Shown here: piece after piece, positions 9,194-37,174 of the stretch
Layout of the letters: each line of letters starts with the position of its first letter
Numbering within the stretch: position 1 is the stretch's first letter
Assembly (NCBI GenBank): GCA_003702495.1
Contig: REGH01000006.1
Span: 1-43,142, forward strand
Origin: Candidatus Nitrosopumilus sp.
Lineage (GTDB): Archaea > Thermoproteota > Nitrososphaeria > Nitrososphaerales > Nitrosopumilaceae
Direction: 5' to 3'
Length of the DNA: 43,142 bases
The notes under the pieces: generated by a model
What the model saw: only the letters and a program-made list of their open reading frames with translations
Database searches by the model: none
What the model was told of the DNA's origin: nothing
Program-made: the position numbers and the translations under genes

Positions 9194-9382
9194 TTAGACT
9201 CGAGTTTTATCTACTTCATCTAAAATTTTCTGCATGCAATCATGACAAATTACATCATCCACTGATAATTTTCTAATCACACCATGATCTTGAACTTGAG
9301 AATCATAAGTTGCAGAGATAACTATCTTGTTGCTCCAGACCGCAAAGTCTTCTTTTTTCTTTGAGCACACAATACAGTTCAC
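9194..9382 (-). CDS. Small zinc-binding protein, 62 aa
   Basis: Not recognised beyond its metal site. Seen: CIVC at the N-terminus and CHDC near residues 48-51, a split pair suited to one zinc ion. GTG start 9382; a TATA-like box (TTTATAGAC, about 9402-9410) lies about 24 nt upstream. The stop abuts the rpl11 stop. It is the last of five mini-genes that interrupt the usual rpl11-rpl1 order. Confidence 0.7.
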   Translation of the reverse strand: MNCIVCSKKKEDFAVWSNKIVISATYDSQVQDHGVIRKLSVDDVICHDCMQKILDEVDKTRV

Positions 9383-9715: not shown

Positions 9716-9841
9716 TTAGAGTTTGGGAAGTTGGCCAGTTTTATCCAGATTTGATTTACACACCTTACAATACAATCTAACCTCAGTTGATGGAAATTCA
9801 GCACCACAGTTTTTACAAGTGTAAAGTTTGCTCTCTACCAT
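9716..9841 (-). CDS. Zinc-ribbon mini-protein, 41 aa
   Basis: Seen: two CxxC knuckles, Cys9/Cys12 (CKNC) and Cys25/Cys28 (CKVC), 12 residues apart: a complete zinc ribbon with a short basic tail. A TATA-like CTTAAGTCTG (about 9863-9872) lies about 27 nt before the ATG, suggesting its own leaderless mRNA. No other domain, so it may act as a small nucleic-acid or protein adaptor; that is inference. Confidence 0.65.
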   Translation of the reverse strand: MVESKLYTCKNCGAEFPSTEVRLYCKVCKSNLDKTGQLPKL

Positions 9842-20578: not shown

Positions 20579-20582
20579 TATA

Positions 20583-23450: not shown

Positions 23451-23771
23451 ATGAAATTTACTAAAATTATTGGAGTTATTTTGATTGGTGTGGGTGTTTG
23501 GGCACTCAATGTATCATTTCAAACCTACTTGCCTGGAACCGAAGATATCTTTTCAGATAAGACCGGAAATATGCTAGAATCAATTCGAGTGTATTGTCCC
23601 TATTATGACCCTACTGATGAGGACACATTTGATCCATGTCAAAATGAGTTTGACGGAATTAGAAATACATGGAATACTATAGGAATCGGATTGTTTGTTG
23701 GTGGCATTCTATTTTACTACAAATGGCTATTACAGTTACTTAGAATTGTTCGGGATAAAATGTTACGATAA
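23451..23771 (+). CDS. Small two-TM membrane protein, 106 aa
   Basis: Seen: TM1 (about 4-24, IIGVILIGVGVWALNVSF), a roughly 45-residue outer loop with two cysteines (YCPYYDP and FDPCQNE) that could form a disulfide, TM2 (about 74-92) and a basic tail. The ATG directly follows the leuS TAG with no gap, so it is translated from the same mRNA. Function unknown. Confidence 0.8.
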   Translation: MKFTKIIGVILIGVGVWALNVSFQTYLPGTEDIFSDKTGNMLESIRVYCPYYDPTDEDTFDPCQNEFDGIRNTWNTIGIGLFVGGILFYYKWLLQLLRIVRDKMLR

Positions 23772-23774
23772 TAC

Positions 23775-23930
23775 TTGAATAACCTTGTGTCTTTTAGGCT
23801 CAAATTCACCAATTATCTAGTGTATTGTCATTTTTGTAAGAATTGTCACGTATTATGCGAGAAATTCAAGGAATCGAATTGTTTATGGTGGGTTTGTCCT
23901 AGTTGTCATTCCTATTATCAGGTGGAATAG
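23775..23930 (+). CDS. Overlooked zinc-ribbon mini-protein, up to 51 aa
   Basis: Seen: frame from TTG 23775 (alternatives GTG 23787, GTG 23820) encoding YCHFCKNCHVLC, then CLWWVCPSCHSYYQVE, i.e. eight cysteines and three histidines arranged as two zinc knuckles. The TAG stop abuts the stop of the convergent gene with no gap, as several other convergent pairs here do. It is 3 nt downstream of the two-TM gene. The Cys pattern is hard to get by chance, but start and expression are uncertain. Confidence 0.55.
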   Translation: MNNLVSFRLKFTNYLVYCHFCKNCHVLCEKFKESNCLWWVCPSCHSYYQVE

Positions 23931-24362
23931 TTAATCCATTTTCAAAGAATCTACTGTACCATCAGGATTATGCCTCGTAACTGAAATGTCAGGAGTATTT
24001 TTGAAAAATACAATTTTTTCAAACTCTGGATCATCTTCAAAACAATATGGCTTTGGTGTAAAAATTGAGGTAACTCCAGTTTTGATATTAACACGGACAT
24101 AAGTGCTGATATTTTTTATGGAATAGATCGTTTTGTAGGTGTTCAGCATTTTTGTCATGTGGTTAGGATCGTATTTCTCGTGAGTTGTATTATAACAATC
24201 CATAGATGAAGCAAAAACTAGTTCATCATGATTTTGTTGTAATTCCTCTGCATGACAATTGATGTGATAATAATTGTCCACCCAATCACCTTCATTATCT
24301 AAAAACAACAAACCAACAAAAATTCCTTCATCAATTTCATCATTACATTTAGAACAAATCAC
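23931..24362 (-). CDS. Hypothetical protein with N-terminal Cys site, 143 aa
   Basis: Not recognised. From GTG 24362: MICSKCNDEIDEGIFVGLLF with CxxC at 3-6, then HINCHAEEL, suggesting a four-ligand zinc site, then a beta-rich C-terminal half (TYVRVNIKTGVTSIFTPKPY). The frame is open to TTG 24374, but a TATA-like CTTAAAAATG at about 24382-24391 lies about 26 nt from 24362, which decides the start. Confidence 0.72.
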   Translation of the reverse strand: MICSKCNDEIDEGIFVGLLFLDNEGDWVDNYYHINCHAEELQQNHDELVFASSMDCYNTTHEKYDPNHMTKMLNTYKTIYSIKNISTYVRVNIKTGVTSIFTPKPYCFEDDPEFEKIVFFKNTPDISVTRHNPDGTVDSLKMD

Positions 24363-24564
24363 AAAAATTATCAAAGATATTCATTTTTAAGAATTAAGAT
24401 ATACTTTGACGCTATTTTCTACAGCGAATGCACTTTTTAGAATGTAAATACTAAATTTGAAAATATTTCCCAAAAGTTACAAAATAGACTTAATCTTAAT
24501 TGAGAATCCCATCAGATATACTTGAAAATATTCACAATTACAACACTAAACTAAAAAAAGCCAA
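24363..24564. other. AT-rich spacer
   Basis: About 200 bp between two minus-strand genes. It holds the putative promoter of the downstream gene (near 24388) and two copies of ttgaaaatatt about 65 bp apart. No reading frame or strong hairpin seen. Confidence 0.4.
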
Positions 24565-24846
24565 TTACTGTAATCGCTCATTTGGAGGAATTACCTCGTC
24601 ATACATTTCTCCGCATAGTTTGAAATGAATCCAAAGAAGCGAGTCCTTGTCATCATCAGATAGTTTTGAGAACTGATTTTCAGCATACTCTAAAAATTCA
24701 TCTCTGTCCATTTTGAAGACATTTAATCTCTGTTCACCTGAAAGAATGACAGATTTGTTTTGAATTCTATCCAGTATTCTAAACTCATCTTTGTCATTGA
24801 TTTGTAATTCCCAATTAACACCGACGCTTAGAGGCTTAAACTCCAT
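24565..24846 (-). CDS. Hypothetical acidic protein, 93 aa
   Basis: Not recognised. Seen: soluble, one Cys; beta-type N-terminus (LSVGVNWELQINDKDEFRIL) then helices (DEFLEYAENQFSKLSDDDKD), ending CGEMYDEVIPPNERLQ. ATG 24846 with an AT-rich TATA-like region (about 24860-24872) upstream. It stands alone between spacers. Confidence 0.72.
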   Translation of the reverse strand: MEFKPLSVGVNWELQINDKDEFRILDRIQNKSVILSGEQRLNVFKMDRDEFLEYAENQFSKLSDDDKDSLLWIHFKLCGEMYDEVIPPNERLQ

Positions 24847-24887
24847 AATTACAATAGAAATTAATATTTTTTAAAACTAGTTAGAAC

Positions 24888-25244
24888 TCACATACCCATT
24901 GTCTTTCTCTTTGCAAAAAACAATACACCAAATCCCAGAATCAAAGCTTGCAATACATATCCACCAATTATCAATACCAGTGCATTTACTACGGGGTAAA
25001 ACGAGATCATTACCTCTGTATGTCTTGGAGATGCAGTATTTGCAATTATTACAATTATAGAAATCACCATACAAGGAATCAGGACATACCTAATGCGAAC
25101 AATAGAAAGAATTGTCAATGCAATAAACGCTGATTCTAAAATTAAGGCATTTACGATAAACTGAGGATCCCCCATTTGAATTCCAATTGCTCCAACCACA
25201 CTCACCAGACCGAGAAGAATGGTGAGAATTCTCTTATTCACAGG
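24888..25244 (-). CDS. Small polytopic membrane protein
   Basis: Seen: four hydrophobic helices in about 118 residues from GTG 25244 (MNKRILTILLGLVSVVGAIG), ending FFAKRKTMGM. The frame is open to 25370, with another possible start at 25310 that would add a further hydrophobic helix but overlap the divergent uracil-DNA glycosylase gene. GTG 25244 avoids the overlap and has a TATA-like CTATTATCC about 24 nt upstream. The start is uncertain; function unknown. Confidence 0.65.
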   Translation of the reverse strand, partial: PVNKRILTILLGLVSVVGAIGIQMGDPQFIVNALILESAFIALTILSIVRIRYVLIPCMVISIIVIIANTASPRHTEVMISFYPVVNALVLIIGGYVLQALILGFGVLFFAKRKTMGM

Positions 25245-25278
25245 AAATAAAAATTCCAAACAGGATAATAGAGTAACT

Positions 25279-25938
25279 ATGGCAAAGTCGACTATCAATT
25301 CACTTAACATCAGGATCAAGTCTTGCCAAAAGTGTCCAAGACTGGCAAAATACATCAGACAAGTAGCCAAAAAAAAGGTTAGGCGATTCCAAGATGAAAA
25401 ATACTACGGCAGACCACTCTCAGGCTTTGGAGATGTAAAGGCCAAGCTGTTGATTGTAGGACTAGCACCAGCCGCTCACGGAGGAAACCGCACAGGTAGA
25501 ATGTTTACAGGAGATTCCTCAGGTGACTGGGTTTCAAAAGTGATGCATAAGACAGGATTTGCAAACATTCCAACCAGTCAAAATAGCAATGACGGACTAA
25601 CTCTTTCAAATGCATACATTACAGCTGCTGTAAGGTGCGCCCCACCACAAAACAAGCCAACAAAAGAAGAGATGCAAAACTGTCACACGTTTTTAGATCA
25701 GGAATTCCAAATACTTGAAAACATTACAACCATTCTGTGTCTAGGAAAAATTGCATATGATGCAACATGCAAGTTACTTGATGTTAAGCCAGGAAAGTTT
25801 GGACACAACCAGATATTTCAGTATGATTCAATCAAGGTCATTACATCTTACCATCCATCGAAGCAAAACACACAGACAGGGCGACTGTCATGGAATGACT
25901 GGCATGCAGTGTTTAAACGTGCAAAGAAATTAGTCTAG
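25279..25938 (+). CDS. Uracil-DNA glycosylase, family 5 (UdgB-like, Fe-S)
   Basis: Removes uracil (and in this family sometimes other deaminated bases) from DNA. From ATG 25279 (219 aa): CQKCPRL at about 16-22 supplying the first two Fe-S cysteines, the catalytic-region motif GLAPAAHGGNRTGRMFTGD with no catalytic Asp/Asn after GLAP, typical of family 5, a further Cys in VRCAPP and one near NCHTF, and the closing HPSKQN motif. A TATA-like AAATAAAAATT lies about 27 nt upstream of 25279, supporting this start over the longer frame from 25219. Confidence 0.9.
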   Translation: MAKSTINSLNIRIKSCQKCPRLAKYIRQVAKKKVRRFQDEKYYGRPLSGFGDVKAKLLIVGLAPAAHGGNRTGRMFTGDSSGDWVSKVMHKTGFANIPTSQNSNDGLTLSNAYITAAVRCAPPQNKPTKEEMQNCHTFLDQEFQILENITTILCLGKIAYDATCKLLDVKPGKFGHNQIFQYDSIKVITSYHPSKQNTQTGRLSWNDWHAVFKRAKKLV

Positions 25939-25941
25939 AAT

Positions 25942-26052
25942 CTAATAATTTTCAGGATCTTCAGATTCCCTTTCACGTCCGCATTTAGGACACAATGTTT
26001 CGTTTTGAAATAATTCCTTTCCACAGTTTCTGCAGGATTGAGGTTTTACCAT
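25942..26052 (-). CDS. Zinc-ribbon mini-protein, 36 aa
   Basis: Seen: Cys7/Cys10 (CRNCG) and Cys21/Cys24 (CPKCG), each followed by Gly, the classic double-knuckle zinc ribbon; acidic tail ESEDPENY. Too short for routine gene calling. The stop lies 3 nt from the convergent UdgB stop. Function unknown; ribbons like this often recruit or stabilise partner proteins or nucleic acids. Confidence 0.65.
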   Translation of the reverse strand: MVKPQSCRNCGKELFQNETLCPKCGRERESEDPENY

Positions 26053-26076
26053 AAGGAGAATTCAACCTAATTGTTT

Positions 26077-26421
26077 TTAATGATTTATCAGATTAACCTT
26101 GATTAGTATTCTAGAGTTAATTTTGCTTTTTCGCGGCTCAAAGATTACATGACCATTTGTTATTGAATAACTCTCCTTGAGGTCCTCGTCTTCAGGTAAA
26201 AATTCGTAGGAAAAATTACCTTTTTGGAGCAGTTTCAAAATTGACTGTTTGACAGAGATTCCAGATTCATCAAGATCTATTTCACCCCTACCCTTTGAGA
26301 TTATTCTAGGATAGTAATCTCGCTCAAACTTTTCAAAAATGTACTTTTTGAGAAAGTTCTCGTCTCTTCTTGCCTTTATCCACCAGGAAGGGGATACGTC
26401 CATAAAAAATTTCAACTCCAT
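26077..26421 (-). CDS. Hypothetical soluble protein, 114 aa
   Basis: Not recognised. From ATG 26421: MELKFFMDVSPSWWIKARRD, a basic helix, ERDYYPRIISKGRGEIDLDE, then strands to SRILIKVNLINH. No Cys, no TM. A TATA-like AATAAATG (about 26444-26451) lies 26 nt upstream, choosing this Met over the one at 26475. Confidence 0.75.
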   Translation of the reverse strand: MELKFFMDVSPSWWIKARRDENFLKKYIFEKFERDYYPRIISKGRGEIDLDESGISVKQSILKLLQKGNFSYEFLPEDEDLKESYSITNGHVIFEPRKSKINSRILIKVNLINH

Positions 26422-26494
26422 TACAATACCGTGAATCCCTTTGCATTTATTGCTAGTCAGATCCTTGAAATACAATTAACGGGTAATCATTACA

Positions 26495-26617
26495 TTGAAT
26501 CAGGAATTTTTTTGCGGACACAAGCCAACTGTGTTGGTGAAGGAATCAAAAAAATTTAAAGGAATAACAATGAAGCTATGCGCCGAATGCGCAGAGATTG
26601 ATTGCATTGATGATTAA
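26495..26617 (+). CDS. Cys-rich mini-protein, 40 aa
   Basis: Seen: TTG start, MNQEFFCGHKPTVLVKESKK, then GITMKLCAECAEIDCIDD: Cys7-x-His9 with Cys30/Cys33 (CAEC) and a further Cys38, a plausible zinc site. Below the usual length limit. No Shine-Dalgarno is evident. Start codon uncertain; the spaced CGH/CxxC pattern argues for coding. Confidence 0.55.
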   Translation: MNQEFFCGHKPTVLVKESKKFKGITMKLCAECAEIDCIDD

Positions 26618-26730
26618 ACTACAAAAAATGAGGATTAATTACGTGAATTAGAAATTTAAATTGTTAAGACGTTTACCAATTTTAAAAAAATTAAAGAACA
26701 ATCTAATTTGGAAAACACATAAGTAAATAC

Positions 26731-27036
26731 ATGTCAGCAATCAAATATTCAAAAAGCAAAAAATCATCAAGTTACACAAATCATTTTATTGTAGCAGGAA
26801 TACTTGCAGGAGTTGGAATTGCATTACTAGCATACCTAATGTTCTACGTCGCTCCAGCCGAAGTACTTGAGACTGTAAAAGTCGTAGCAGTTACTGATAG
26901 TGGATGTATCGCTGAAACTCTAGACGGACATGCAGTAAACATTGGAAATTGTAATGCAGAACCAGGTGATTACATCAGTGCTCTAGTTGATCAAAAAGTC
27001 AAAGAAAGGGCAGCATTGATGAATCCAACAAACTAA
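26731..27036 (+). CDS. Small single-TM protein, 101 aa
   Basis: Seen: basic N-terminus (SAIKYSKSKKSSSYTNH), one TM helix (about 19-40, VAGILAGVGIALLAYLMFYV), and an outer beta-rich domain with Cys58 and Cys73 (SGCIAET, GNCNAEPGD) that may form a disulfide. ATG start 26731. A likely membrane-tethered extracytoplasmic domain; function unknown. Confidence 0.78.
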   Translation: MSAIKYSKSKKSSSYTNHFIVAGILAGVGIALLAYLMFYVAPAEVLETVKVVAVTDSGCIAETLDGHAVNIGNCNAEPGDYISALVDQKVKERAALMNPTN

Positions 27037-27073
27037 TTTTTTACTTATCCATAACGGATAATTCCTAACTTTT

Positions 27074-27208
27074 CTATTTTTTGGTCTTTTGTGGTTTAGA
27101 GTGAGCCTTTACCATGTGTCTCATTGTTCTTTCAGGATCAGTAAATTCCATGTTACAAATCCTGCAAACAAGACTAGGAGATTCAGGTTTCTTTTTGAAA
27201 AAGTTCAT
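27074..27208 (-). CDS. C2H2-type zinc finger mini-protein, 44 aa
   Basis: Seen: Cys15-x2-Cys18-x12-His31-x4-His36 (LVCRICNMEF, RTMRHMVKAH), the spacing of a classical C2H2 finger, flanked by lysine-rich ends (MNFFKKKPE and SKPQKTKK). ATG 27208. Too short for routine calling. The finger plus basic tails suggests nucleic-acid binding; this is inference. No clear promoter seen. Confidence 0.62.
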   Translation of the reverse strand: MNFFKKKPESPSLVCRICNMEFTDPERTMRHMVKAHSKPQKTKK

Positions 27209-27296
27209 GCAAACACATCAGTTTGTTTCAATATGAACCATGAAAATATACAGTGTAACAACTTAGATTAAAAAAATCAAACAAAAAGAGGGAAAT

Positions 27297-27401
27297 TTAG
27301 TCAAACATTACTGCCCCAACAATCACAAGAACACTTACACAGATCGCCATAATTGCCAATTTGCTGTTTTTACTCCAACCCTCTTTTACAGTAACCTTCA
27401 T
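27297..27401 (-). CDS. Single-TM mini-protein, 34 aa
   Basis: Seen: basic start (MKVTVKEGWSKNSK) then one hydrophobic helix (about 15-33, LAIMAICVSVLVIVGAVM), ending FD. Promoter-like ATACGCTTAATTTG lies about 31 nt upstream (27428-27441); very similar boxes precede two other genes in this stretch. N-in/C-out topology by the positive-inside rule. Function unknown. Confidence 0.55.
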   Translation of the reverse strand: MKVTVKEGWSKNSKLAIMAICVSVLVIVGAVMFD

Positions 27402-27447
27402 TTTCTATTTCAAATCAAAAAACGAATCAAATTAAGCGTATGTTTTT

Positions 27448-27681
27448 TCAAGATTCCTTTAATCTAATCTCATCCATGCATACAGGGCAAATTTTTTGAT
27501 TTTCATATTCAATCAGATTTCCCCTCATATGAGCAGGCTTGTCACATTTAGCACAAGTTACTGAATAGTACTCTTCAAGTTCTAAAACACAACCAGAGCA
27601 CAACATCTTGTCTACCCCATGATTATGATATCTACTGACTGCAGATACTTCCTTGTTGCATCTCTGACAGGTATCAGTCAT
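27448..27681 (-). CDS. Double zinc-ribbon protein, 77 aa
   Basis: Seen: four CxxC knuckles, Cys5/8, Cys28/31, Cys43/46, Cys65/68 (CQRC, CSGC, CAKC, CPVC), enough for two zinc sites, arranged LIM-like, with little other sequence. Leaderless-type start: CTTTATCTTG about 27 nt upstream of ATG 27681. Probably a protein-protein adaptor; partner unknown. Confidence 0.8.
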   Translation of the reverse strand: MTDTCQRCNKEVSAVSRYHNHGVDKMLCSGCVLELEEYYSVTCAKCDKPAHMRGNLIEYENQKICPVCMDEIRLKES

Positions 27682-27719
27682 AGATTTGATGCCAAAAATT
27701 TACAAGATAAAGACTAGAG

Positions 27720-28238
27720 TTAATTCTCACCATTGGTATCCTCAACAGAATAACCTCCAAGTGTAGTATGTGCAGCTCGCTCTGTTGCAAATTTTTTGGA
27801 TTTTAGTGCAGATTCTGAAATTATCTCCAGTCTACCAACTATGATATAGTCTGTCATGTTTTGGTATGTACTTGAATCAGCAGGATCTTTTGCATATACA
27901 ATCTGGATGTAAGCCCGGAGTGGATTCCACATTGAAGATTTTTTCTCAATCATGTTTTTGATTTTGCCATATGTTCCAGTCTGACTCATGCCAGAGCGAT
28001 ATAATCCAATGTTTTCACCGGACTCTGCTTCCTGATAGATACAGATGGCATAATTGCCGTCATCTTTTTCGATAAATGTTAGATGGATGTCTTTAGGCTT
28101 CCATAACTTTACAATGTCGGCAATCTTTTGAGATTCCTCTTGTTTTACAAACAATGGAACTGCAATTGGATTTCCGGCATTACTTCTCCATGCAATTCCA
28201 TAAAAGTTGCCATACCAAGAATATTTTACATCTACCAT
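27720..28238 (-). CDS. Hypothetical protein, 172 aa
   Basis: Not recognised. Seen: soluble, beta-rich: VKYSWYGNFYGIAWRSNAGN, KDIHLTFIEKDDGNYAICIY, RAYIQIVYAKDPADSS; Ser/Thr/Gly-rich C-terminus. Starts 11 nt after the stop of the 89-aa gene upstream, so it is likely the second gene of a two- or three-gene operon. Confidence 0.75.
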   Translation of the reverse strand: MVDVKYSWYGNFYGIAWRSNAGNPIAVPLFVKQEESQKIADIVKLWKPKDIHLTFIEKDDGNYAICIYQEAESGENIGLYRSGMSQTGTYGKIKNMIEKKSSMWNPLRAYIQIVYAKDPADSSTYQNMTDYIIVGRLEIISESALKSKKFATERAAHTTLGGYSVEDTNGEN

Positions 28239-28249
28239 TTCACAAAACC

Positions 28250-28519
28250 TCAGACATATTTCTCGTAGAGTTGATGAATCATAGAGTTTATCTTTTCGTT
28301 TTCATGGTCTCCCCAAGAGTCTGTCTTTATTCTGATGTGGATGTTGTTTTCTTCTAACTTTTCTGTGATTTTTGGATACATCATTCCAATGAAAAATGAC
28401 TTTTTGTCCAAGTGCATCTGTTCTGCCTTGTGTTGAAAGTAGCTTACCCATTCAGATTCTACATCCTGAAAGGTCTCTAAAATTATTGATTGAATCTTTT
28501 CTTCAATCTCAGGATTCAT
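28250..28519 (-). CDS. Hypothetical helical protein, 89 aa
   Basis: Not recognised. From ATG 28519: MNPEIEEKIQSIILETFQDV, aromatic WVSYFQHKAEQMHLDKK, then NNIHIRIKTDSWGD and a helical end. An ATG at 28537 is in frame, but the TATA-like CTTAAGTTCATT (about 28537-28548) is 27 nt from 28519 and overlaps the other start. Followed after 11 nt by the 172-aa gene. Confidence 0.72.
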   Translation of the reverse strand: MNPEIEEKIQSIILETFQDVESEWVSYFQHKAEQMHLDKKSFFIGMMYPKITEKLEENNIHIRIKTDSWGDHENEKINSMIHQLYEKYV

Positions 28520-28558
28520 GATTCTATCATATTCCAAATGAACTTAAGAGTGTTAAAT

Positions 28559-28684
28559 CTACTCCTGAGATTCTTCATATTCTTCGTCTTGCTCGTATCC
28601 ATCTTTTAGTTCTAGTTGATGGTCTTCTTCTTTCATCTCTTCTTGTTCAAGTTTCTTCCATTCTTTTTCCTTGTCTTCAGACAT
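28559..28684 (-). CDS. Highly acidic mini-protein, 41 aa
   Basis: Seen: almost entirely charged, Glu/Asp/Lys (MSEDKEKEWKKLEQEEMKEE, end YEESQE), a single helix. TATA-like TGTTAATATC (28705-28714) about 26 nt before the ATG supports expression. Low complexity makes homology hard to judge. Function unknown. Confidence 0.5.
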   Translation of the reverse strand: MSEDKEKEWKKLEQEEMKEEDHQLELKDGYEQDEEYEESQE

Positions 28685-28739
28685 GAATTACAAAATGTTT
28701 TTTTAGATATTAACAGATTCTTTATTTTCAGTTTTGAGA

Positions 28740-29165
28740 TTATGAAGATTCGTTGTTTTCAACTACATGGTGTTCCAATACACCAATGCATTCATCGAGG
28801 GATTCGTTTTCAGATATTGCCTTTGTCTCTTGGAGATTGAACTCCTGGCTTAGTTGCAAGTCATATTCTTTCAAATCATTTCTGTATGTATTACATGCAG
28901 AGCGCAACAAACGCCAATAATAGTACCCCTTGTTCATTTCCTCTTGGATCTTTTCAGAGTCCAAGATTCTCGAAAGTTTTTCATAGTCTTCTTTGTAATT
29001 GTCAAATTTTTCCTTTACAATTTGAGGTAGTTCTGCATACCAATCTCTTCCTTCATTAGTCTTTTCGACGTTGTTGAGTTTTTGCAGTTGGTATGATACT
29101 GAATCTTTTAGGACATCTAAGGTATTGTTTGTCTCAAGTAGTCTCAATATCTCAGGATTTATCAT
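28740..29165 (-). CDS. Hypothetical coiled-coil protein, 141 aa
   Basis: Not recognised. Seen: almost all helix with heptad-like spacing (LETNNTLDVLKDSVSYQLQK, FDNYKEDYEKLSRIL), two Cys, acidic C-terminus (VENNESS). Promoter box ATACGCTTAAGTTTAC (29184-29199) about 25-27 nt upstream of ATG 29165. Confidence 0.75.
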   Translation of the reverse strand: MINPEILRLLETNNTLDVLKDSVSYQLQKLNNVEKTNEGRDWYAELPQIVKEKFDNYKEDYEKLSRILDSEKIQEEMNKGYYYWRLLRSACNTYRNDLKEYDLQLSQEFNLQETKAISENESLDECIGVLEHHVVENNESS

Positions 29166-29208
29166 GAATCAAATCTCAATCATGTAAACTTAAGCGTATT
29201 GATGATTT

Positions 29209-29523
29209 TCAGTCTTGTTCATCTATTGCATCTTGTATGTCATCAACCCATCCACCAACATTGAACACTCCAAACTTGTAGGTCTGCTCACCATCACTTG
29301 TCTTGGCAGAGATGCATGCCTTTTTCATCAACAATCCTTCTCGCCAAGTATGAGTAACATCAGATAAAGGGATGTCAAGTATGGTTTCACCCATATGTTT
29401 TGAGAAATCCATTATTCTAGATCTTGTCTTATCAAAGGCAATTCTTTTGCTAGTTAAAGTAAGAACACCTTGACCTAGATTATCCTCATGGCAATCTTCT
29501 TGCTTGAGTTTCTTCTCAGCCAT
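29209..29523 (-). CDS. PH/GRAM-like domain protein, 104 aa
   Basis: Seen: GQGVLTLTSKRIAFDKT, then LDIPLSDVTHTWREGLLMKK and TYKFGVFNVGGWVDDIQDAI: the strand order and LTSKRI signature of bacterial PH-like/GRAM domains, ending in the expected C-terminal helix. Cytosolic, whole-protein domain. TATA-like TTTAATTC about 26 nt upstream of ATG 29523. Ligand (lipid or protein) unknown; fold call is moderate. Confidence 0.7.
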   Translation of the reverse strand: MAEKKLKQEDCHEDNLGQGVLTLTSKRIAFDKTRSRIMDFSKHMGETILDIPLSDVTHTWREGLLMKKACISAKTSDGEQTYKFGVFNVGGWVDDIQDAIDEQD

Positions 29524-29564
29524 GACTAGTATGGTTGTATTTTTGAATTAAAGTGATTGTCAAA

Positions 29565-29867
29565 TTATACACTGATTCCCCAGCCTCTAAGAATTAGTTT
29601 CTCATAGCTGGAATCTTTTACACATTTCATATTGTTTGTTGTCTTTTTGATAATCTCTTTGAAGCCATCACTGCACATCATTTTTGGTGGGTCCATTGAT
29701 GTAGATATAGGAGTTGTAGGTTCTGAATCAAGATGACATTCTTGGGTCTTTTTGATTACTTCCATCCCACACACTTTGTGTGGACTGGACCAATGCCAGG
29801 AAGCGAATGCAGAAGACACCGGAATCATCAAAACCAATGCAATTACAACAATAGCAATTATTTTCAC
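29565..29867 (-). CDS. Secreted protein with C...RGW domain, 100 aa
   Basis: Seen: signal peptide (about 1-22, GTG start: MKIIAIVVIALVLMIPVSSA), two Cys-containing segments, and a C-terminal module 65-96: Cys65, Gly68, Cys82-Val83, Ser87, Lys90-Leu91, Arg94-Gly95-Trp96. The same module pattern occurs at 103-133 of the Kazal-nuclease protein at 36012-37142. Likely extracytoplasmic. Confidence 0.75.
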   Translation of the reverse strand: MKIIAIVVIALVLMIPVSSAFASWHWSSPHKVCGMEVIKKTQECHLDSEPTTPISTSMDPPKMMCSDGFKEIIKKTTNNMKCVKDSSYEKLILRGWGISV

Positions 29868-29926
29868 AAAAATATTGAGTTTTTATCATATATTAAAAAA
29901 AATCAATTTCGATGCTAGTGCCAAGG

Positions 29927-30136
29927 TCAGTTCTCTGAATGTCTTTGTTTAATAATTCTAGTAACTTCTGCAACAAGTTCCTCATCTTTTTTTACCAATG
30001 CTTCTAATGCAACACGATACTCTTCATCACCCCACTTGTTTTGAGCAAACATCTGCTTTACCAAATTTACAACATCAGACTTGTTTTTCTGGTGATCATG
30101 TTTTGCATTTTCTAGATTATCCACAAATTTCATCAT
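29927..30136 (-). CDS. Hypothetical helical protein, 69 aa
   Basis: Not recognised. Seen: soluble, helical, His/Lys/Glu-rich (DNLENAKHDHQKNKSDVVNL, KKDEELVAEVTRIIKQRHSE). Starts possible at ATG 30136, ATG 30133 or GTG 30124; the last is at leaderless distance (about 25 nt) from a TATA-like TTTTATT inside the inverted repeat 30136-30166. That repeat may be an operator. Confidence 0.72.
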   Translation of the reverse strand: MMKFVDNLENAKHDHQKNKSDVVNLVKQMFAQNKWGDEEYRVALEALVKKDEELVAEVTRIIKQRHSEN

Positions 30137-30166
30137 AGAACATCAAATAAAATTGATGATGTTCTA
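30136..30166. promoter_or_regulatory. 10-bp perfect inverted repeat around a TATA-like box
   Basis: TAGAACATCA (30136-30145) and its exact complement TGATGTTCTA (30157-30166), separated by 11 bases (aataaaattga) that contain the TATA-like element of the 69-aa gene. The half-sites flank the box symmetrically, as expected for a dimeric repressor site; it could alternatively form a hairpin. Confidence 0.55.
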
Positions 30167-30183
30167 ACCTCCACTTTAATTCT

Positions 30184-30441
30184 GAATCATTCCTAGTTAC
30201 TCTCTCATGATTTGCAATATGCTAGGATGTAATTCTGAAGCCTTTACTCAGGTAATGTTCTACCATTTTGAGCAAGGTATGAGTAAACCATTCTGCAAGC
30301 AGATCATGAGATTTTGTACTAATCACGCAATGGAGATCTCAAGAGATGATTGTAACATAAGAATTCAGGTTTTAAGCTAAAACCCTCGAGGGACAAAAAC
30401 GAGGGCCAATACAGGATGAATTATCTAAGTTCTTTCCTGTA
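30184..30441. ncRNA. Candidate structured RNA in a gene-free stretch
   Basis: No reading frame fits 30167-30489. It holds perfect inverted repeats: GAAT+TCCTAG / CTAGGA+ATTC (30184-30196, 30222-30235), TTTACTCA / TGAGTAAA (30243-30250, 30280-30287) enclosing GGTA-6nt-TACC, GGTTTTA / TAAAACC (30368-30374, 30378-30384), CCCTCG / CGAGGG (30383-30388, 30400-30405) and TACAGGA / TCCTGTA (30410-30416, 30435-30441). A T-run (30455-30459) follows on the plus strand. Not recognised as SRP RNA or RNase P RNA. Strand is a guess. Confidence 0.4.
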
Positions 30442-30489
30442 CAGCAAAAGTAGGATTTTTGTCTTAAAATAAGATACCAGTTTTTTGTT

Positions 30490-30630
30490 CTAGAGTCCTT
30501 CCTCATTCAGATCAGGTTCTGGATTTGCACTCTCAAATTTCATTTCACGTTTCTGGCAGGACTCGCACTTTTCCCACATGCCAAATTCGTTTCGAATTTT
30601 TCCTTTGCCGTCACATCTAAGACAGGCCAT
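30490..30630 (-). CDS. Zinc-binding mini-protein with DnaJ-like knuckle, 46 aa
   Basis: Seen: MACLRCDGKGKIRNEFGMWE with CxxCxGxG (Cys3/Cys6), as in DnaJ zinc domains, paired with Cys22/Cys25 (CESC); acidic tail. ATG 30630; TATA-like CTTAAAATTAT upstream at about 30642-30652. Complete zinc site in a protein too short for routine calling. Confidence 0.65.
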   Translation of the reverse strand: MACLRCDGKGKIRNEFGMWEKCESCQKREMKFESANPEPDLNEEGL

Positions 30631-30670
30631 AATGTAGTAAAATAATTTTAAGACTTAAGGATTTTGGAGT

Positions 30671-31339
30671 CTAAATAGATTTTAGATAGTCTCTTAGTTT
30701 CTCTGTCTTTTCTTCAACTGATAATGGCAATAATTCTTCCATCATCTGTTTCATCTCTTGTTTCTTTGCATCTTTTTCTTCATCAGATAATGCGTCCCAT
30801 TGAACTTTCATTGACATAAAGTGCATGATCATCTTTGCTCTCTCATCAATAGATAATGCAAAAAATGCTTCTTTCACTTCACCCCACTGTTTCATTTTGA
30901 GTTCTCGCTCTTCTGGCGTTAGATCGGCGTAGTGGTCCTTCCATTTTCCAGATTTTTCAGATTGTTTCCAACTATCTTTTGATTTTCCCTCAGAGACATA
31001 CAAGACATTTCCATTACCTGCATCAACGATTACTTTGTAATACATATCATCATCAGATAAAACTCCAACTTTGTAGACCAAGTATCCTTGGATGACTTGA
31101 AGCTTGCCCCACATTGCATTAGAATCTTCAACGGTTTCTTGAGCAATGGTCATTGCATCAGCCAATGAAATTTCTTCTAGTCCACTAAAATCCGAATCAC
31201 TTACAGCAATACTTCCAGTAATGTCAGGAATTTTGTAATCACCATATTCTGCAAGAACACTAATTGGCGAAAATGACGCAATCGCAATAGCAAACACAGA
31301 AACTGCAAGTATTGCAGGTATGGTGATCTTTTTGTTCAT
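30671..31339 (-). CDS. Secreted PepSY-like protein with charged helical tail
   Basis: From ATG 31339 (222 aa): signal peptide (about 1-30, NKKITIPAILAVSVFAIAIA), a PepSY-like region (about 55-118: EISLADAMTIAQETVED, GYLVYKVGVLSDDDMYYKVI, VDAGNGNVLY), then a charged helical half with repeated LTPEERELKMKQW / LSDEEKDAKKQEM / LSVEEKTEKLRDY phases. TATA-like TTTAATAGTG about 27 nt upstream selects this Met over the one at 31363. PepSY domains are thought to inhibit or chaperone extracytoplasmic partners; partner unknown. Confidence 0.8.
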   Translation of the reverse strand: MNKKITIPAILAVSVFAIAIASFSPISVLAEYGDYKIPDITGSIAVSDSDFSGLEEISLADAMTIAQETVEDSNAMWGKLQVIQGYLVYKVGVLSDDDMYYKVIVDAGNGNVLYVSEGKSKDSWKQSEKSGKWKDHYADLTPEERELKMKQWGEVKEAFFALSIDERAKMIMHFMSMKVQWDALSDEEKDAKKQEMKQMMEELLPLSVEEKTEKLRDYLKSI

Positions 31340-31436
31340 ATGTGGTTGTCCTTCTATTTTCACTATTAAATTGCTCTACTAAATGTTCATAGTGACAACA
31401 AATACGTAGTATGATTTCAAATTCAGGAGGCCGAAT

Positions 31437-31577
31437 TTACTGTGCAATAGCCTGTTTTGAAATCACAAAGCTAGACCAGTACTTGTCGGCATAGCATTTC
31501 TCACATACTCTAAAGACTGAACCAGTATCATATTCAATAAGATACTTAGATTCTCTGTGACAACAACTGTGGGGCAT
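31437..31577 (-). CDS. Cys/His mini-protein, 46 aa
   Basis: Seen: MPHSCCHRESKYLIEYDTG, then VFRVCEKCYADKYW: CCH near residues 5-7 and CEKC at 26-29, a plausible zinc site. TATA-like CTTAAAT (31601-31607) about 27 nt upstream of the ATG. Function unknown. Confidence 0.6.
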   Translation of the reverse strand: MPHSCCHRESKYLIEYDTGSVFRVCEKCYADKYWSSFVISKQAIAQ

Positions 31578-31636
31578 CAATGATAATAGGTGCTAATAGA
31601 ATTTAAGAGAAAAGCAAGTTTTTAGCTAGTGGTAAG

Positions 31637-31828
31637 TTACCTACTAGCTAACATGTTTTTGAATTCCTCAACAGGAGTAATGAACTTGCATTTTTTACAA
31701 AACAATACCTCGTTGTTTTGCATTTTTTTGATATTAGTTGGTATCTTTCCGCAGAAAAGAGACTCACTTTGACAGTTTGGACAGTTTGCCAACAAACGAT
31801 TCATTCCATATTCATTGGTGACGTTCAT
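31637..31828 (-). CDS. Zinc-ribbon protein, 63 aa
   Basis: From ATG 31828: NVTNEYGMNRLLANCPNCQS, then FCGKIPTNIKK and VLFCKKCKFITPVEEFK: CPNC and CKKC knuckles plus one extra Cys. The frame extends to 31885, but TTAATATGC at about 31849-31857 lies 26 nt from 31828 and supports the shorter protein. Function unknown. Confidence 0.68.
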   Translation of the reverse strand: MNVTNEYGMNRLLANCPNCQSESLFCGKIPTNIKKMQNNEVLFCKKCKFITPVEEFKNMLASR

Positions 31829-31913
31829 AGAACAATTTAAGAAAACTAGCATATTAAAAAAATGAATAATTTGTACTAGTGCCAAGGATCACATTTGAGA
31901 AAACAGAGGTTCA

Positions 31914-32093
31914 TCAAACTTTCTGCCAGCAGTTAGTAGCACCACATTGGCCACAGCTTGATTTTGCATTCCATTTTGCAAAGTCCTTGTCAGACGGAAT
32001 CTTAACTACAGTGATTCTCTGACAACCAGTACACTTTACTTTGACTGGAATGTTTCCTTCATTCCCCCCTACAAACAAGTCTTTGAATCCCAT
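31914..32093 (-). CDS. Zinc-ribbon protein, 59 aa
   Basis: From ATG 32093: GFKDLFVGGNEGNIPVKVKC, then CTGC and CGQCGATNC: a zinc ribbon with a Gly/Val-rich N-terminus. It starts 5 nt after the helicase stop, so it is probably on the same mRNA. The frame extends to 32207, but that part lies inside the helicase gene and is not needed. Confidence 0.7.
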   Translation of the reverse strand: MGFKDLFVGGNEGNIPVKVKCTGCQRITVVKIPSDKDFAKWNAKSSCGQCGATNCWQKV

Positions 32094-32098
32094 GATAA

Positions 32099-34738
32099 TC
32101 ACTTGTAAAATGTAGCAAAAAAATCTATTGCATCTTTTTTTGATAGATCCTTGTTTTTTGTTTGGCAATAATTGTTGGTAAAGGTGCACTTTGGACATCC
32201 ACCCCACTTTCCACCCTCGGAAACTGCCTTTTTTTGCTTTGAATCAACAGGACAGTCACAATCACTCAACAATGAAGAACATGTCTCTAGTATCTTTTCA
32301 AAATCCTCATAGATTATCTTGCTGCATCCATTAAATCCATCAGAAGAGTTGTCATATAGATAGATGATTCCATTTTCATAGTACACTTCAATGTCATTTG
32401 ATTCTGATTTTGTGATAATTTTTGCTGCATTAATCAACACATGACAAATGGTATGTATTCTTGAATCATTTCCAATCTGACTTTTAGATTCAGATGATTT
32501 TATAACAAATTCAGGAGGAACAACAATACTTACAGAGGAGTGCTTTGACTTCCAGTTAAAATTTCTCCAGGATGGAACCGTACTTCCATTAAATGTCTGA
32601 AAGTTCTCAGATGAATCATTATAATTTCCTTTAAGGTAACCAGTGATGGTTCTACTTAACTCGATTATGCCATAACGTAGAGATAGTTTTCTCTTTTTTA
32701 CAACAACATCTCTGTGTACTGCATTTCTCTCAGATGTCTGCAAGATTGATGTTCTGACAATTGGAATTGTTCTTTTCTGATTCTCATAGGACTTTCTCAG
32801 ATATGCACGTGCACCATTCTGAGATTTTCTCAGAGATATGACCTCATAGTTTTGTTTATTGAAATGATAAATTGCATTTTGATGTAATTGATAATATCCA
32901 ACTGGCACACCACGTGTTCCAATTTTTTTAGAATTCAAATAAATGGCAATCTCACCTGATGCACCGCGAAGATTTACACTGTTTGCAAAATCAAAGAACT
33001 GTGATTTGTCAGAGCTCTCAGCAGCTTCTGCTTCAACTTCAATTGATTGTTCATGTTTATCTGAGATTATGGAATTTTTCTTGTTAATTGGAATGACGTG
33101 GTCTTGTGTAAGATATTCATCAATGTGACGTGCAAAATAGTGACACGATGCATCATCAGGATCAAATACACAAATCGCATAGGATTTCTGACCCATCCTA
33201 CCTGCACGCCCAATTCGTTGAACAAAGGAATCATACTCATTTTTGAAGGCAGAAATGACCACATCTACGTGTCCAATATCAATTCCAAGTTCTAAAGTAG
33301 GAGTACAGGATAATGCATCAAGTTCGCCTGCTTTCATCTGAGATTCGTATAGTTTTCGGTTATTTTGATCAAGACCGCCCCTGTGGATCTGAATTCGGAT
33401 TCCATCATTTGTAGACTCTACATTTGATGCAAGAAATTCTGAATCATTGTGAGAATTGCTAAAGACTAGTTGTGTTGAATGATTCCTGAAGCATATTGAC
33501 GACAACATCTCCATGGTAGTTCTTTGTCCAAATTTTCGTGGCATGATAAAGAACATGTGCATATTTCTTTTCCGTCTTGTTTCACTTTTGATGTATGAAA
33601 ATGATTCAGCAGGTAAATCAAACATGTTTGAGAAAAATTCCTGAGAGTTATCTAATGTGGCTGACGAGCCAACATACTGTACATCGTTCATGTATCGTTT
33701 CATTCTTTTTAGAACATGATACACATTAGATCCATGGAAACTGGTGTAAGAATGAGCCTCATCCATCACAATTATTTTTGCGTTCTTGAATAATTCATTC
33801 CATTTTTTGTCTTGTAAAATCAAATGGTAATTGATAAAATCAAAGTTTGTTGCAATGATTAGTGATTTTTTTGCAGCATCTGCAATTATCATGTCTTTGT
33901 ATTCAGAGCTTTGTCCACCGTGAATTGAATAGACATCAACTGTATTTTTTAATCCGCAACTATCAATGAGTTTTGATATTTTGGAAACCTGATCATCAAT
34001 TAGTGCATTAAGTGGATAAACAAATAGTGCAAATACGCCAGGTTCTTTTTGTTTTGAAATTTTCTCCAAAATAGGAATGCTAAATGCTTCAGTTTTTCCA
34101 GAACCAGTTGGAGCTGAAATTATAGAGTTTTTACCATTCAGGATGGAGCGAACTGATTCTTCTTGGAAAGGCAACAATCCAGTAAATCCATACTTTACAA
34201 TTCCCATCAGGATTTTCTCAGACAATACATCATTTAGGCTCTCGACAGGTACTTTTTCAGGCTCAGGAGAGACCATATTTTCATAGTGAACAATGGCCAA
34301 AGATTCTTCTTTGTGTCCCTGAATTATTTCATGAATAATGAAATCATCATCAACTAGGGATTTTGGAATTTTTGATATATCATATAGAATTTCTTGAGGG
34401 ATAGGGATTTTGGGTTTTGGAGCAACTTCTTTTTTCTTGATTTGTTTTATTTCATCAGGGAAGTAATCAGACTTGGTAGGGCCATCACATCTATGTGGCT
34501 CATCTGTTCTTGAATCAATTGGGATAAACTTTCCACTGTCAGATTTGAATTCCTCATCCCAATAGATTTCAGCTCCACATCCCTTGGAACAAGGTCTTGT
34601 TTTTCCAGAATAATTCATGCCATACGTAGGCCTCTTAGGGCTAACCATCTCAGGATTACATTTTGGACAAATTCCAGGACCACCTACATCTTCAAAGTTT
34701 TGAGTAAGTTTAGTATCACAATTAGAACAAAATTTCAT
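32099..34738 (-). CDS. DEAH-box superfamily 2 helicase, YprA/MrfA-like
   Basis: ATP-dependent DNA helicase, probably in DNA repair. Seen (879 aa): N-terminal zinc knuckles (Cys4/7, Cys24/27, CSKGC 50-54, HRC 82-84), Q-motif-like LLPFQEESV, Walker A SAPTGSGKT (209-217), YPLNALIDDQ, DEAH at 326-329 (VMDEAHSY), GSSATL, CTPTLELGIDIGHVD and QRIGRAGRMGQ, then a DUF1998-like C-terminus with cysteines in LSDCDC, GGCPKC and NYC. The relatives MrfA (mitomycin repair) and Hrq1 share this plan; the N-terminal ribbons are an addition. TATA-like box about 28 nt upstream of ATG 34738. Confidence 0.9.
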   Translation of the reverse strand: MKFCSNCDTKLTQNFEDVGGPGICPKCNPEMVSPKRPTYGMNYSGKTRPCSKGCGAEIYWDEEFKSDSGKFIPIDSRTDEPHRCDGPTKSDYFPDEIKQIKKKEVAPKPKIPIPQEILYDISKIPKSLVDDDFIIHEIIQGHKEESLAIVHYENMVSPEPEKVPVESLNDVLSEKILMGIVKYGFTGLLPFQEESVRSILNGKNSIISAPTGSGKTEAFSIPILEKISKQKEPGVFALFVYPLNALIDDQVSKISKLIDSCGLKNTVDVYSIHGGQSSEYKDMIIADAAKKSLIIATNFDFINYHLILQDKKWNELFKNAKIIVMDEAHSYTSFHGSNVYHVLKRMKRYMNDVQYVGSSATLDNSQEFFSNMFDLPAESFSYIKSETRRKRNMHMFFIMPRKFGQRTTMEMLSSICFRNHSTQLVFSNSHNDSEFLASNVESTNDGIRIQIHRGGLDQNNRKLYESQMKAGELDALSCTPTLELGIDIGHVDVVISAFKNEYDSFVQRIGRAGRMGQKSYAICVFDPDDASCHYFARHIDEYLTQDHVIPINKKNSIISDKHEQSIEVEAEAAESSDKSQFFDFANSVNLRGASGEIAIYLNSKKIGTRGVPVGYYQLHQNAIYHFNKQNYEVISLRKSQNGARAYLRKSYENQKRTIPIVRTSILQTSERNAVHRDVVVKKRKLSLRYGIIELSRTITGYLKGNYNDSSENFQTFNGSTVPSWRNFNWKSKHSSVSIVVPPEFVIKSSESKSQIGNDSRIHTICHVLINAAKIITKSESNDIEVYYENGIIYLYDNSSDGFNGCSKIIYEDFEKILETCSSLLSDCDCPVDSKQKKAVSEGGKWGGCPKCTFTNNYCQTKNKDLSKKDAIDFFATFYK

Positions 34739-34910
34739 GAATGCTTTGTGAGATATGAGACCTTTAATGAAGATATGATAAGTTTAGAATTAACATGGGA
34801 TCAAGTTTGATTCAATTATTCATTAGCAATTTGAAATAGTCAAAATAGATCCTGCGATCAAAAATTAATTTTCACTCTTGTTGCTAAATTATCAATACAA
34901 GAAACTAGTC
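34739..34910. other. Divergent intergenic region
   Basis: About 170 bp between the helicase and the plus-strand 62-aa gene. It contains a TATA-like element for each (near 34766 and 34885-34892) and a short repeat ATCAA-gt-TTGAT (34800-34811). Nothing else seen. Confidence 0.4.
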
Positions 34911-35099
34911 ATGGAAAAAACAACAAAAGAAAACATTACAGAAAAATCAATTCAAGACAGACTCAGACAAGCAAGTCACATTACAGTAGAGTCTGCACTC
35001 AGAAACAAAGTAGATCTCAACATTACATGGTATGATGTCCATGGAGAGCAACAAAGTCAAAAGTTTACCATTTCAGCAGGTTCAGTAATAGAATTTTAG
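34911..35099 (+). CDS. Hypothetical small protein, 62 aa
   Basis: Not recognised. From ATG 34911: MEKTTKENITEKSIQDRLRQ helix, then beta-type VDLNITWYDVHGEQQSQKFT ending AGSVIEF. The frame is open to 34878; the later Met has a TATA-like TAAATTAT about 23 nt upstream. No Cys or TM segment. Confidence 0.65.
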   Translation: MEKTTKENITEKSIQDRLRQASHITVESALRNKVDLNITWYDVHGEQQSQKFTISAGSVIEF

Positions 35100-35123
35100 G
35101 GAAAAATCCTACTTTCTTTTTTT

Positions 35124-35357
35124 CTAGTTAACACCTTTTCTTCTAGAGAGTTTTTCGCCAGAGAATTTGCTGGTACGCTCAAATTCTTCTGCTTTAGCCT
35201 TAACTTTGTCCCTTTCTTCTTGGGTTTGCTCTCGAATAATGACATCTTCTGCATCAGTATAGTTCTGACACTTGTTACACAGCCACAAGGTTCCCTTGTC
35301 ATCTGCACTATACTGAGGATAGCGTCTCTCTTCGCACGTCTTACAATAAAGAGGCAT
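35124..35357 (-). CDS. Zinc-ribbon protein with charged tail, 77 aa
   Basis: From ATG 35357: MPLYCKTCEERRYPQYSADD, then LWLCNKCQNY: Cys5/8 and CNKC, one zinc ribbon, then a Lys/Glu-rich helix (QEERDKVKAKAEEFER). Layout resembles the short RPB9/TFIIS-like ribbons (CKTC...CNKC), but no subunit assignment is made. Promoter box ATACGCTTAATTTG (35379-35392) lies 26 nt upstream and rules against the start at 35381, which it overlaps. Confidence 0.75.
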   Translation of the reverse strand: MPLYCKTCEERRYPQYSADDKGTLWLCNKCQNYTDAEDVIIREQTQEERDKVKAKAEEFERTSKFSGEKLSRRKGVN

Positions 35358-35378
35358 GATTTTGAATGAAATATTTCT

Positions 35379-35392
35379 CAAATTAAGCGTAT
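35379..35392 (-). promoter_or_regulatory. Promoter box ATACGCTTAATTTG
   Basis: TATA-like element with an extended upstream half, centred 26 nt before ATG 35357. Near-identical boxes occur at 27428-27441 and 29184-29199, upstream of other small genes. Confidence 0.55.
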
Positions 35393-35397
35393 TGGAT

Positions 35398-35592
35398 TCA
35401 TTCCAATTCAGATATAATCAGGGCACGTTTTTTGAGCAAATTTTCCAGATTTTTTTCCAATCGACGTAGTGTTTCATAATCAGGGTTTTGCTTCTTACTC
35501 TCAGATTCTTTATGTTCTTCTAATTTCTTAATTCTAGATTCAGCATCACAAAGAGCTTCTTGCAATCCGTCAACATCCTTTTCAAAAGACAA
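35398..35592 (-). CDS. Short coiled-coil protein, 64 aa
   Basis: Seen: one long heptad helix (SFEKDVDGLQEALCDAESRI, then RRLEKNLENLLKKRALIISE). TTG start 35592 with CTTAATTTG (35616-35624) about 28 nt upstream, overlapping the stop codon of the gene before it. Probably an oligomer or adaptor; function unknown. Confidence 0.62.
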   Translation of the reverse strand: MSFEKDVDGLQEALCDAESRIKKLEEHKESESKKQNPDYETLRRLEKNLENLLKKRALIISELE

Positions 35593-35619
35593 GTTACTAA
35601 AATTGAATCAATTATCAAA

Positions 35620-35874
35620 TTAAGGGTTTGGAGAATAAAGGTCTCTTTGACTCCACTGCTCTTTTTGATAATCAGTTCCAAAGACATCAAGGGATTTTGT
35701 AATGCATTCTTCTTGTTCCATTCCCTGCGGAAATAATTTCTTACAGTCATCTACTGCAAGTTGTAGATTTCTCTGATCACGTTCTGCAACATACACGTCA
35801 TAGTTAGAGCTACCAATTATTCCAATAATTATTGCAACTACAACTACTATGGACAATGGAATGATAGGTCTCAT
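35620..35874 (-). CDS. Signal-anchored small protein, 84 aa
   Basis: Seen: one N-terminal hydrophobic segment (about 4-22, IIPLSIVVVVAIIIGIIGSS), then a soluble outer part with two Cys (VDDCKKLFP, QEECITKS) that could form a disulfide. ATG start overlaps the stop of the 35-aa gene (ATGA), implying translational coupling. Function unknown. Confidence 0.7.
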   Translation of the reverse strand: MRPIIPLSIVVVVAIIIGIIGSSNYDVYVAERDQRNLQLAVDDCKKLFPQGMEQEECITKSLDVFGTDYQKEQWSQRDLYSPNP

Positions 35875-35978
35875 CGCCCTGTGACATAAGCGACATACAA
35901 TGCAACGGAAACAATACTAGATATGCAAATAATTATTCCAAGTTCTTTCTTAGAAAAAACTGCTGTTCTGTAACTCAA
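35871..35978 (-). CDS. Single-TM mini-protein, 35 aa
   Basis: Seen: MSYRTAVFSKKE cytosolic start, one TM helix (about 13-32, LGIIICISSIVSVALYVAYV), short end TGR. TTG start 35978 is the only usual start codon in the frame. Its TGA overlaps the next ATG. The ATGA overlap with another membrane protein makes it a likely partner. Confidence 0.5.
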   Translation of the reverse strand: MSYRTAVFSKKELGIIICISSIVSVALYVAYVTGR

Positions 35979-36011
35979 TGAATAATTTACTTTGTCACAG
36001 AATTTAGGGTT

Positions 36012-37142: not shown

Positions 37143-37174
37143 AATTATTTTGTATTTCTCTCAATTAAGAATAT

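Follow-up and report, generated by a model that had tools for sequence, protein, structure and literature searches.

The 43,142-bp window analysed here is contig C20 in full, part of a 1.27-Mb draft assembly from a Nitrosopumilus-type ammonia-oxidizing archaeon. Between the gene for leucyl-tRNA synthetase (leuS; 20571-23450, + strand) and the rps7-rps12-nusA block it carries an array of small open reading frames (ORFs) with paired cysteines and histidines, hereafter called zinc ORFs. A sharply bounded variable locus (23451-37174), which holds zinc microproteins and other small genes, contains the whole array, and this proposed cause of the clustering is new. A sequence-only reading of the same DNA had pointed to eleven such frames in the cluster and to two more at 9194 and 9716, and all of them were found to be open and to contain Cys/His pairs. 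The interpretation favoured here, with a probability of roughly 0.7, is that the array represents cargo of a hypervariable leuS locus and comprises about nine genuine, unrelated zinc microproteins of 36-77 amino acids (aa), each acting alone. What is newest here is that this leuS locus is variable and, throughout Nitrosopumilus, enriched in zinc microproteins.

The leuS locus and its variable content

The leuS product of the window is 93% identical to the leucyl-tRNA synthetase of Nitrosopumilus sp. SFB3. On the left, the variable locus is bounded by this conserved gene, which is preceded by alaS in most loci with enough sequence. The right border is a nitroreductase-type gene (37175-37777, - strand), and the gene order from there is conserved as nitroreductase (NTR), geranylgeranyl-reductase-like (GGR), h39088, rps7, rps12 and nusA; the gene names in this block are presumptive assignments from the sequences. 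The relatives come from two sources, the leuS loci of named genomes (80 loci) and per-protein searches of 61 whole genomes. All 80 fetched loci were picked by leuS, which is hence present in 80 of 80.

A right-hand anchor was found in 57 of the 80 loci. In 18 it was the nitroreductase, at 33-9,316 bp from leuS, and in the remaining anchored loci it was the reductase, at 46-4,547 bp; four further loci had neither anchor within 10 kb. The gap in the window, 13,724 bp, lies above the 33 bp to 9.3 kb seen in relatives, and in L034, a locus whose leuS is 90% identical, it is 1.1 kb. All eleven ORFs of the cluster lie inside the interval between leuS and the next anchor. Over 65 of the 80 loci, this interval contains 51 zinc ORFs in 133 kb, against 30 in the remaining 1,111 kb of those loci, and without the four closest relatives that share cargo it is still 11-fold richer per bp. 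The gap exceeds 1.5 kb in 22 loci, of which 15 carry one or more zinc ORFs, belonging to several families.

Exchange of content could also be followed for single genes. The zinc ORF z9194 (9194-9382, - strand, 62 aa) is outside the cluster and has a relative in L034 with 57% identity and 4/4 cysteines kept. The L034 gene lies within the leuS interval, while that of the window is 14 kb away; therefore such genes change places. Moreover, in the closest relative a Cdc6-like gene (L031:7753-9045) follows leuS, and the leuS neighbourhood there is therefore wholly unlike that of the window. The clustering of zinc genes is better explained by this variable locus than by a shared role.

Coding status and selection

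Comparison with relatives identifies nine of the eleven ORFs as genuine genes under purifying selection. In these nine, pooled, 456 of 463 aligned cysteines were retained compared with 3512 of 5742 for other residues, although finding relatives via protein similarity somewhat favours cysteine conservation. Ratios of nonsynonymous to synonymous substitution (dN/dS) were obtained among relatives of at least 65% identity, with many synonymous distances near saturation, and are given below as medians.

The first of the nine, z25942 (25942-26052, - strand, 36 aa), has one predicted zinc ribbon with two CxxCG motifs and 8 relatives (cysteines kept 31/32, dN/dS 0.13). z26495 (26495-26617, + strand, 40 aa) has a syntenic ortholog with 95% identity, from which it differs by 14 synonymous and 3 nonsynonymous changes (dN/dS 0.03, one pair), and two more relatives in genomes G016 and G030. 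z27074 (27074-27208, - strand, 44 aa) is a single C2H2 finger with basic flanks and a net charge of +7; it has 31 distinct relatives (62/62, 0.12) and was matched in 43 of 61 genomes at E<=0.01. z27448 (27448-27681, - strand, 77 aa) contains two putative zinc modules and has 7 relatives (54/54, 0.22), while z30490 (30490-30630, - strand, 46 aa) contains CxxCxGKG..CxxC, a single DnaJ-type motif, and has 21 (83/84, 0.09). Of the remaining four, z31437 (31437-31577, - strand, 46 aa) has 5 relatives (20/20, 0.03), and the others are predicted zinc ribbons: z31637 (31637-31804, - strand, 55 aa) with 12 relatives (58/60, 0.27), z31914 (31914-32093, - strand, 59 aa) with 11 (52/55, 0.08) and z35124 (35124-35357, - strand, 77 aa), which adds a helix and a conserved basic RRKGVN tail, with 23 (alignment A1; 92/92, 0.03). 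Five other genes of the region have dN/dS values of 0.04-0.23, similar to the 0.03-0.27 of the nine zinc genes. Outside the cluster, z9716 (9716-9841, - strand, 41 aa) has relatives at 73-87% identity in 19 of 60 genomes. Of the zinc ORFs scanned against Pfam, PHROGs and NCBIfam, none scored above the curated cut-off of any model that has one.

The other two ORFs of the cluster, both with TTG starts, are weak gene candidates. z23775 (23775-23930, + strand, 51 aa) lacks a syntenic ortholog; it has a 29-residue match with 59% identity in genome G012, where a longer match contains a stop, and a shorter match in G043. z23931 (23931-24374, - strand, 147 aa) is an orphan with weak matches only (E 0.001-0.004) in 2 of 60 relatives. 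The lack of clear orthologs for this pair is what would be expected if the array consisted of chance open frames with cysteines. As an account of the array this is hardly credible, and it is refuted for the nine ORFs which have orthologs, low dN/dS and preserved cysteines. The sequence-only reading had named conservation and selection on the cysteines as a test beforehand, and with both found in nine of the eleven frames its claim was not refuted.

Density against chance

A mechanical definition of zinc ORFs was used for counting, namely 30-150 aa with two Cys/His pairs and a position outside long genes, which leaves out three of the eleven frames (26495, 31437 and 31914). It replaced codon-usage gene calling, which was dropped after it missed most of the zinc genes because short cysteine-rich genes score low; the motif and the amount of free sequence were counted instead. 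By this definition the cluster, taken as 23451-35592, contains 8 zinc ORFs, compared with a mean of 0.57 and a maximum of 3 in Markov shuffles of its non-gene sequence (n=100). A sample of the same genome (435,678 bp, 34% of the total) contains 32, from which about 0.9 would be expected in the cluster, a 9-fold excess with a post hoc Poisson P of ~5e-6. The claim of a dense zinc array is therefore borne out as above chance. Per kb of free sequence the cluster has 1.0 zinc ORFs and the genome 0.38. With a second masking of long genes the same sample gave 28 zinc ORFs, and the cluster was 56% free. Part of the density arises because the cluster is small-gene territory. A comparable stretch exists on contig C14, where six zinc ORFs, some of them probably spurious, fall within 11.6 kb.

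Relatedness, linkage and probable independent action

The clustering had also been taken to suggest a shared role, either regulatory or as adaptors; the proteins could, for instance, be a set of transcription or ribosome factors. Such a functional module agrees with the conservation of the gene set and its order, which is extensive in L032 and L033 and partial in L035, and with the joint recurrence in several loci of z30490 with h29927 and of z31914 with z30490. h29927 (29927-30136, - strand) is a small ORF which accompanies z30490 in several loci and was found in 8 of 80. The sequences are unrelated, however: an all-against-all comparison of the cluster proteins gave nothing better than E 0.0015, the level reached from CxxC pairs alone. 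The distributions of the families also differ, with matches in 3 to 43 of 61 genomes. In other Nitrosopumilus genomes, only 5 of 185 cross-family pairs lie within 5 kb of each other and 180 do not. Moreover, the two modelled proteins have different zinc folds. The AlphaFold model of z35124 is a ribbon and a helix with a predicted local distance difference test score (pLDDT) of 80, its conserved RRKGVN tail being of low confidence. That of z27448 has two compact, treble-clef-like zinc modules (pLDDT 91.6), nearest to ClpX zinc-binding and LIM domains (Z score <=4). The zinc proteins thus probably do not form one system, and a common role, as the sequence-only reading had proposed, is improbable.

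Clear paralogs in other parts of the genome were found for z27074 alone. On contig C25 (L140:6370-9396), two C2H2 microproteins related to z27074 and an ORF with multiple zinc motifs lie within 3 kb, near a translation-factor-like GTPase gene.

Alternatively, each zinc protein could regulate the gene next to it, which would make the array a set of local regulators. There is a precedent in Brz, which regulates bop in Halobacterium according to the available text of PMC2253796, and in the window z31914 lies directly behind a helicase gene. Against this, the neighbours are not the same in every genome: in L035 z31914 comes after z35124, and more distant genomes have it at other places. Local regulation is accordingly considered unlikely as an explanation of the whole array.

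Several observations weigh against the cargo interpretation and its independently acting proteins. Measured per kb of free sequence, the leuS interval has 0.76 zinc ORFs compared with 0.21 in the rest of the same 65 loci, an enrichment of only 3.7-fold. Similarly, a yardstick restricted to sequence free of long genes raises the number expected in the cluster to 3.0, leaving a 2.7-fold excess (P 0.012) in a region chosen post hoc. The PDB matches of the z35124 and z27448 models are weak (Z <=4.5). Finally, the 5 close pairs exceed the 1.2 expected, a hint of joint movement, and draft assemblies hide pairs across contigs. Together with the recurring group of z30490, h29927 and z31914, this excess indicates limited joint movement.

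Possible mobile elements at the leuS locus

Other genomes carry further kinds of cargo in the leuS interval. In Nitrosopumilus ECS24A2 (L037:13032-22839), it contains a type I restriction-modification set (HsdR, HsdS and HsdM types) and a YgjP-like metallopeptidase. A Cas1 gene (L079:13600-14619) and a fragment of a DNA_pol_B_2-type (PolB) polymerase (L073:3595-4461) were each found close behind leuS, and this pair of finds may reflect past use of the site by casposon-like elements, although element ends were not detected. It is conceivable, on this basis, that the zinc genes are remnants of mobile elements (a casposon, a virus or an integrative element) which targeted the 3' side of leuS, and that they act in conflicts between element and host; the restriction set and the match of the window's helicase to defence-type helicases point the same way. 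This origin is regarded as a tentative alternative. Neither a target duplication nor a terminal inverted repeat could be made out convincingly in the window, and nothing longer than 12 nucleotides (nt) is shared with the leuS end in the six loci tested. In a viral collection, no relatives were found of z31914 and z35124 as single proteins nor with profiles A4 and A1, and profile A2 gave one (L242), so that relatives on viral contigs are absent for three families and single for a fourth. The zinc genes are also under purifying selection like their neighbours. Casposon cargo, which would place cas1 and polB in one element with terminal inverted repeats and a target duplication, was rejected for the window itself, where no border repeat was present and none of the 7 non-zinc cargo proteins scanned had a Pfam match to Cas1 or PolB.

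Start codons and promoters

Several starts listed at first were corrected on the minus strand. They were placed at ATG 31577 for z31437, ATG 31804 (or 31828) for z31637, ATG 35357 for z35124 (77 aa) and ATG 9841 for z9716 (41 aa). The start of z31914 was moved to ATG 32093 (59 aa) because the listed 97-aa frame extends into the helicase gene. Orthologs of z31914, z31637, z35124 and z31437 start at or near the corrected methionines.

Most of the small genes had been credited with their own TATA-like box at leaderless distance. A TATA-like box at 28-31 nt before the start codon is the expectation for leaderless transcripts. In the long genes of this genome the start of the box peaks at this distance, and TTWWWA at -34 to -26 was found in 54 of 264 compared with 12 of 264 in a control stretch. 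TATA-like boxes are thus widespread in long genes, and the earlier remark fits the genome at large. As single sequences the cluster genes score no better than other genes, since 3 of 11 (main starts) exceed the 90% control score, as do 31% of long genes.

Upstream alignments supported the remark in part. In four of the seven genes tested (z30490, z35124, z27448 and z31437) the box region is better conserved than the leader, here the 20 nt nearest the start. CTTAA is invariant in 10 of 10 upstream regions of z30490 and the entire -36 to -24 block in 4 of 4 of z35124; 85% of this block is conserved for z27448 and 54% for z31437. The alignments of z27074 and z31914 had no excess conservation of the box, and z31914 has no box at all, its start lying 6 nt after the helicase stop. 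For z25942, a CTTAAAT-like box is common to 6 of 7 upstream regions, although the window's own sequence aligns poorly. Several of the zinc genes would therefore have their own TATA box for transcription, and selection and these promoter footprints suggest that the proteins may be expressed.

Neighbouring cargo genes

The non-zinc cargo includes a DEAD-box helicase with an MrfA-type Zn-binding (MZB) domain (32099-34738, - strand; PF00270, PF00271, PF09369). Its N-terminal part is cysteine-rich, and two relatives have the protein at 95% identity; it did not turn up in the remaining 78 leuS loci. It gave the sole strong match to a defence library, to BrxHI-like and many other helicases alike because the helicase core is shared. 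The same library gave a weak Csx21 match (E 2e-4) at 28740-29165. Further to the left lies a gene of the uracil-DNA glycosylase superfamily (25219-25938, + strand; PF03167, E 1e-25). At the right end of the interval, 36012-37142 encodes a predicted secreted protein whose C-terminal part is presumably nuclease-like; two Kazal-domain matches probably derive from the cargo proteins of relatives at this position.

Proposed function and significance

Under the cargo interpretation, the locus would accept and keep small genes, and the zinc genes would thereby be grouped without forming one system. Zinc binding is predicted from cysteine conservation, and each protein would most likely be a lone, small, zinc-stabilised binding module. 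Nucleic acid or the transcription machinery is the probable binding target of the basic C2H2 finger z27074 and of z35124, a ribbon with a basic tail, while the double module of z27448 probably bridges proteins. More speculatively, the interval from leuS to rps7 might be a dedicated collecting site that gains, exchanges and retains new single-domain zinc factors, which may evolve fast to counter viruses or other mobile elements inserting at the same place.

Nitrosopumilus species rank with the most abundant marine ammonia oxidizers, and they have many small genes without a name. To these the present analysis adds at least nine selected families of zinc microproteins and one bounded variable locus. 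It also gives proteomics a concrete set of targets and lets genomes whose locus is empty be compared naturally with those in which it is full.

Comparison with known systems

Some of the proteins resemble parts of known families. Profile matches of z35124 were mostly to RPB9 chains, the best being a polymerase subunit at a non-significant E of 0.02, and residues 1-37 of its model align with RPB9 at a root-mean-square deviation of 1.4 (Z 3.4, weak). Small UPF0434-type and similar proteins rank higher structurally, however, and z35124, with only four cysteines, is without the second, C-terminal ribbon of RPB9 and has a helix and a basic tail in its place. z30490 shares with Anti-TRAP and the DnaJ Cys-rich motif a single CxxCxGxG...CxxC module, within 46 aa. 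Its matches to PF00684 (E 0.015) and to NCBIfam RtpA (E 0.008) are far under the curated cut-offs; identity with Anti-TRAP was rejected at 16.3 bits against a family cut-off of 65, and a PDB sequence search gave no match. The profile of z27074 matches C2H2 single fingers of 47-65 aa (6skg_Bo, 9sra_Bk and 9qf4_Bk; E 0.0005-0.0011) in structures which we take to be archaeal ribosomes. Many eukaryotic fingers score better, so that only the C2H2 fold is indicated, and a literature search for ribosomal C2H2 proteins of archaea found no paper. For z31914, the PDB search returned only DNL-type and eL34/eL43-type zinc proteins (E 0.006 or worse), and for z27448 RING and LIM proteins (E 0.05 or worse); matches of z31637 were to unrelated leucine-rich chains and were discarded.

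With the casposons and integrated elements of Thaumarchaeota, the leuS loci of two relatives share Cas1 and a PolB fragment. The casposon targets named in the available texts differ, being ef-2 and one other gene, and the word 'leucyl' is absent from both main texts (PMC6563490, PMC4046053).

The closest comparison is with the zinc-finger µ-proteins of archaea. Small proteins of this kind are reported in all archaea (PMC2253796, available text), and Haloferax volcanii is described as having 49 of up to 70 aa (PMC11241148, available text). Literature searches for zinc microproteins of thaumarchaea turned up no paper. As far as the available texts describe them, the C(P)XCG µ-proteins of Haloferax and Halobacterium, including Brz, are likewise single-domain proteins of fewer than 100 aa with two Cys/His pairs, numerous in each genome and mostly without a function so far (PMC2253796, PMC6562870, PMC11241148). 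Several do not bind zinc, according to the title of one paper. Papers set the length limit at either 70 or 100 aa; with corrected starts, ten of the eleven cluster ORFs have 36-77 aa, and z23931 has 147. An approximate form of the motif rule, a CPxCG-related pattern with a second Cys/His pair 7-40 residues away, is found in five of the eleven and also in z9716, whereas the other six have different Cys/His types (C2H2, DnaJ-type or plain CxxC). A further difference is that the cluster ORFs gather in one variable locus, a clustering which goes unmentioned in the available text of the µ-protein papers. The cluster proteins belong to or resemble the known zinc-finger µ-proteins, with only five ORFs assigned to them. 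Of 16 deletion mutants of such proteins, 12 had phenotypes, and these differed in kind (PMC6562870, available text), which agrees with independent action.

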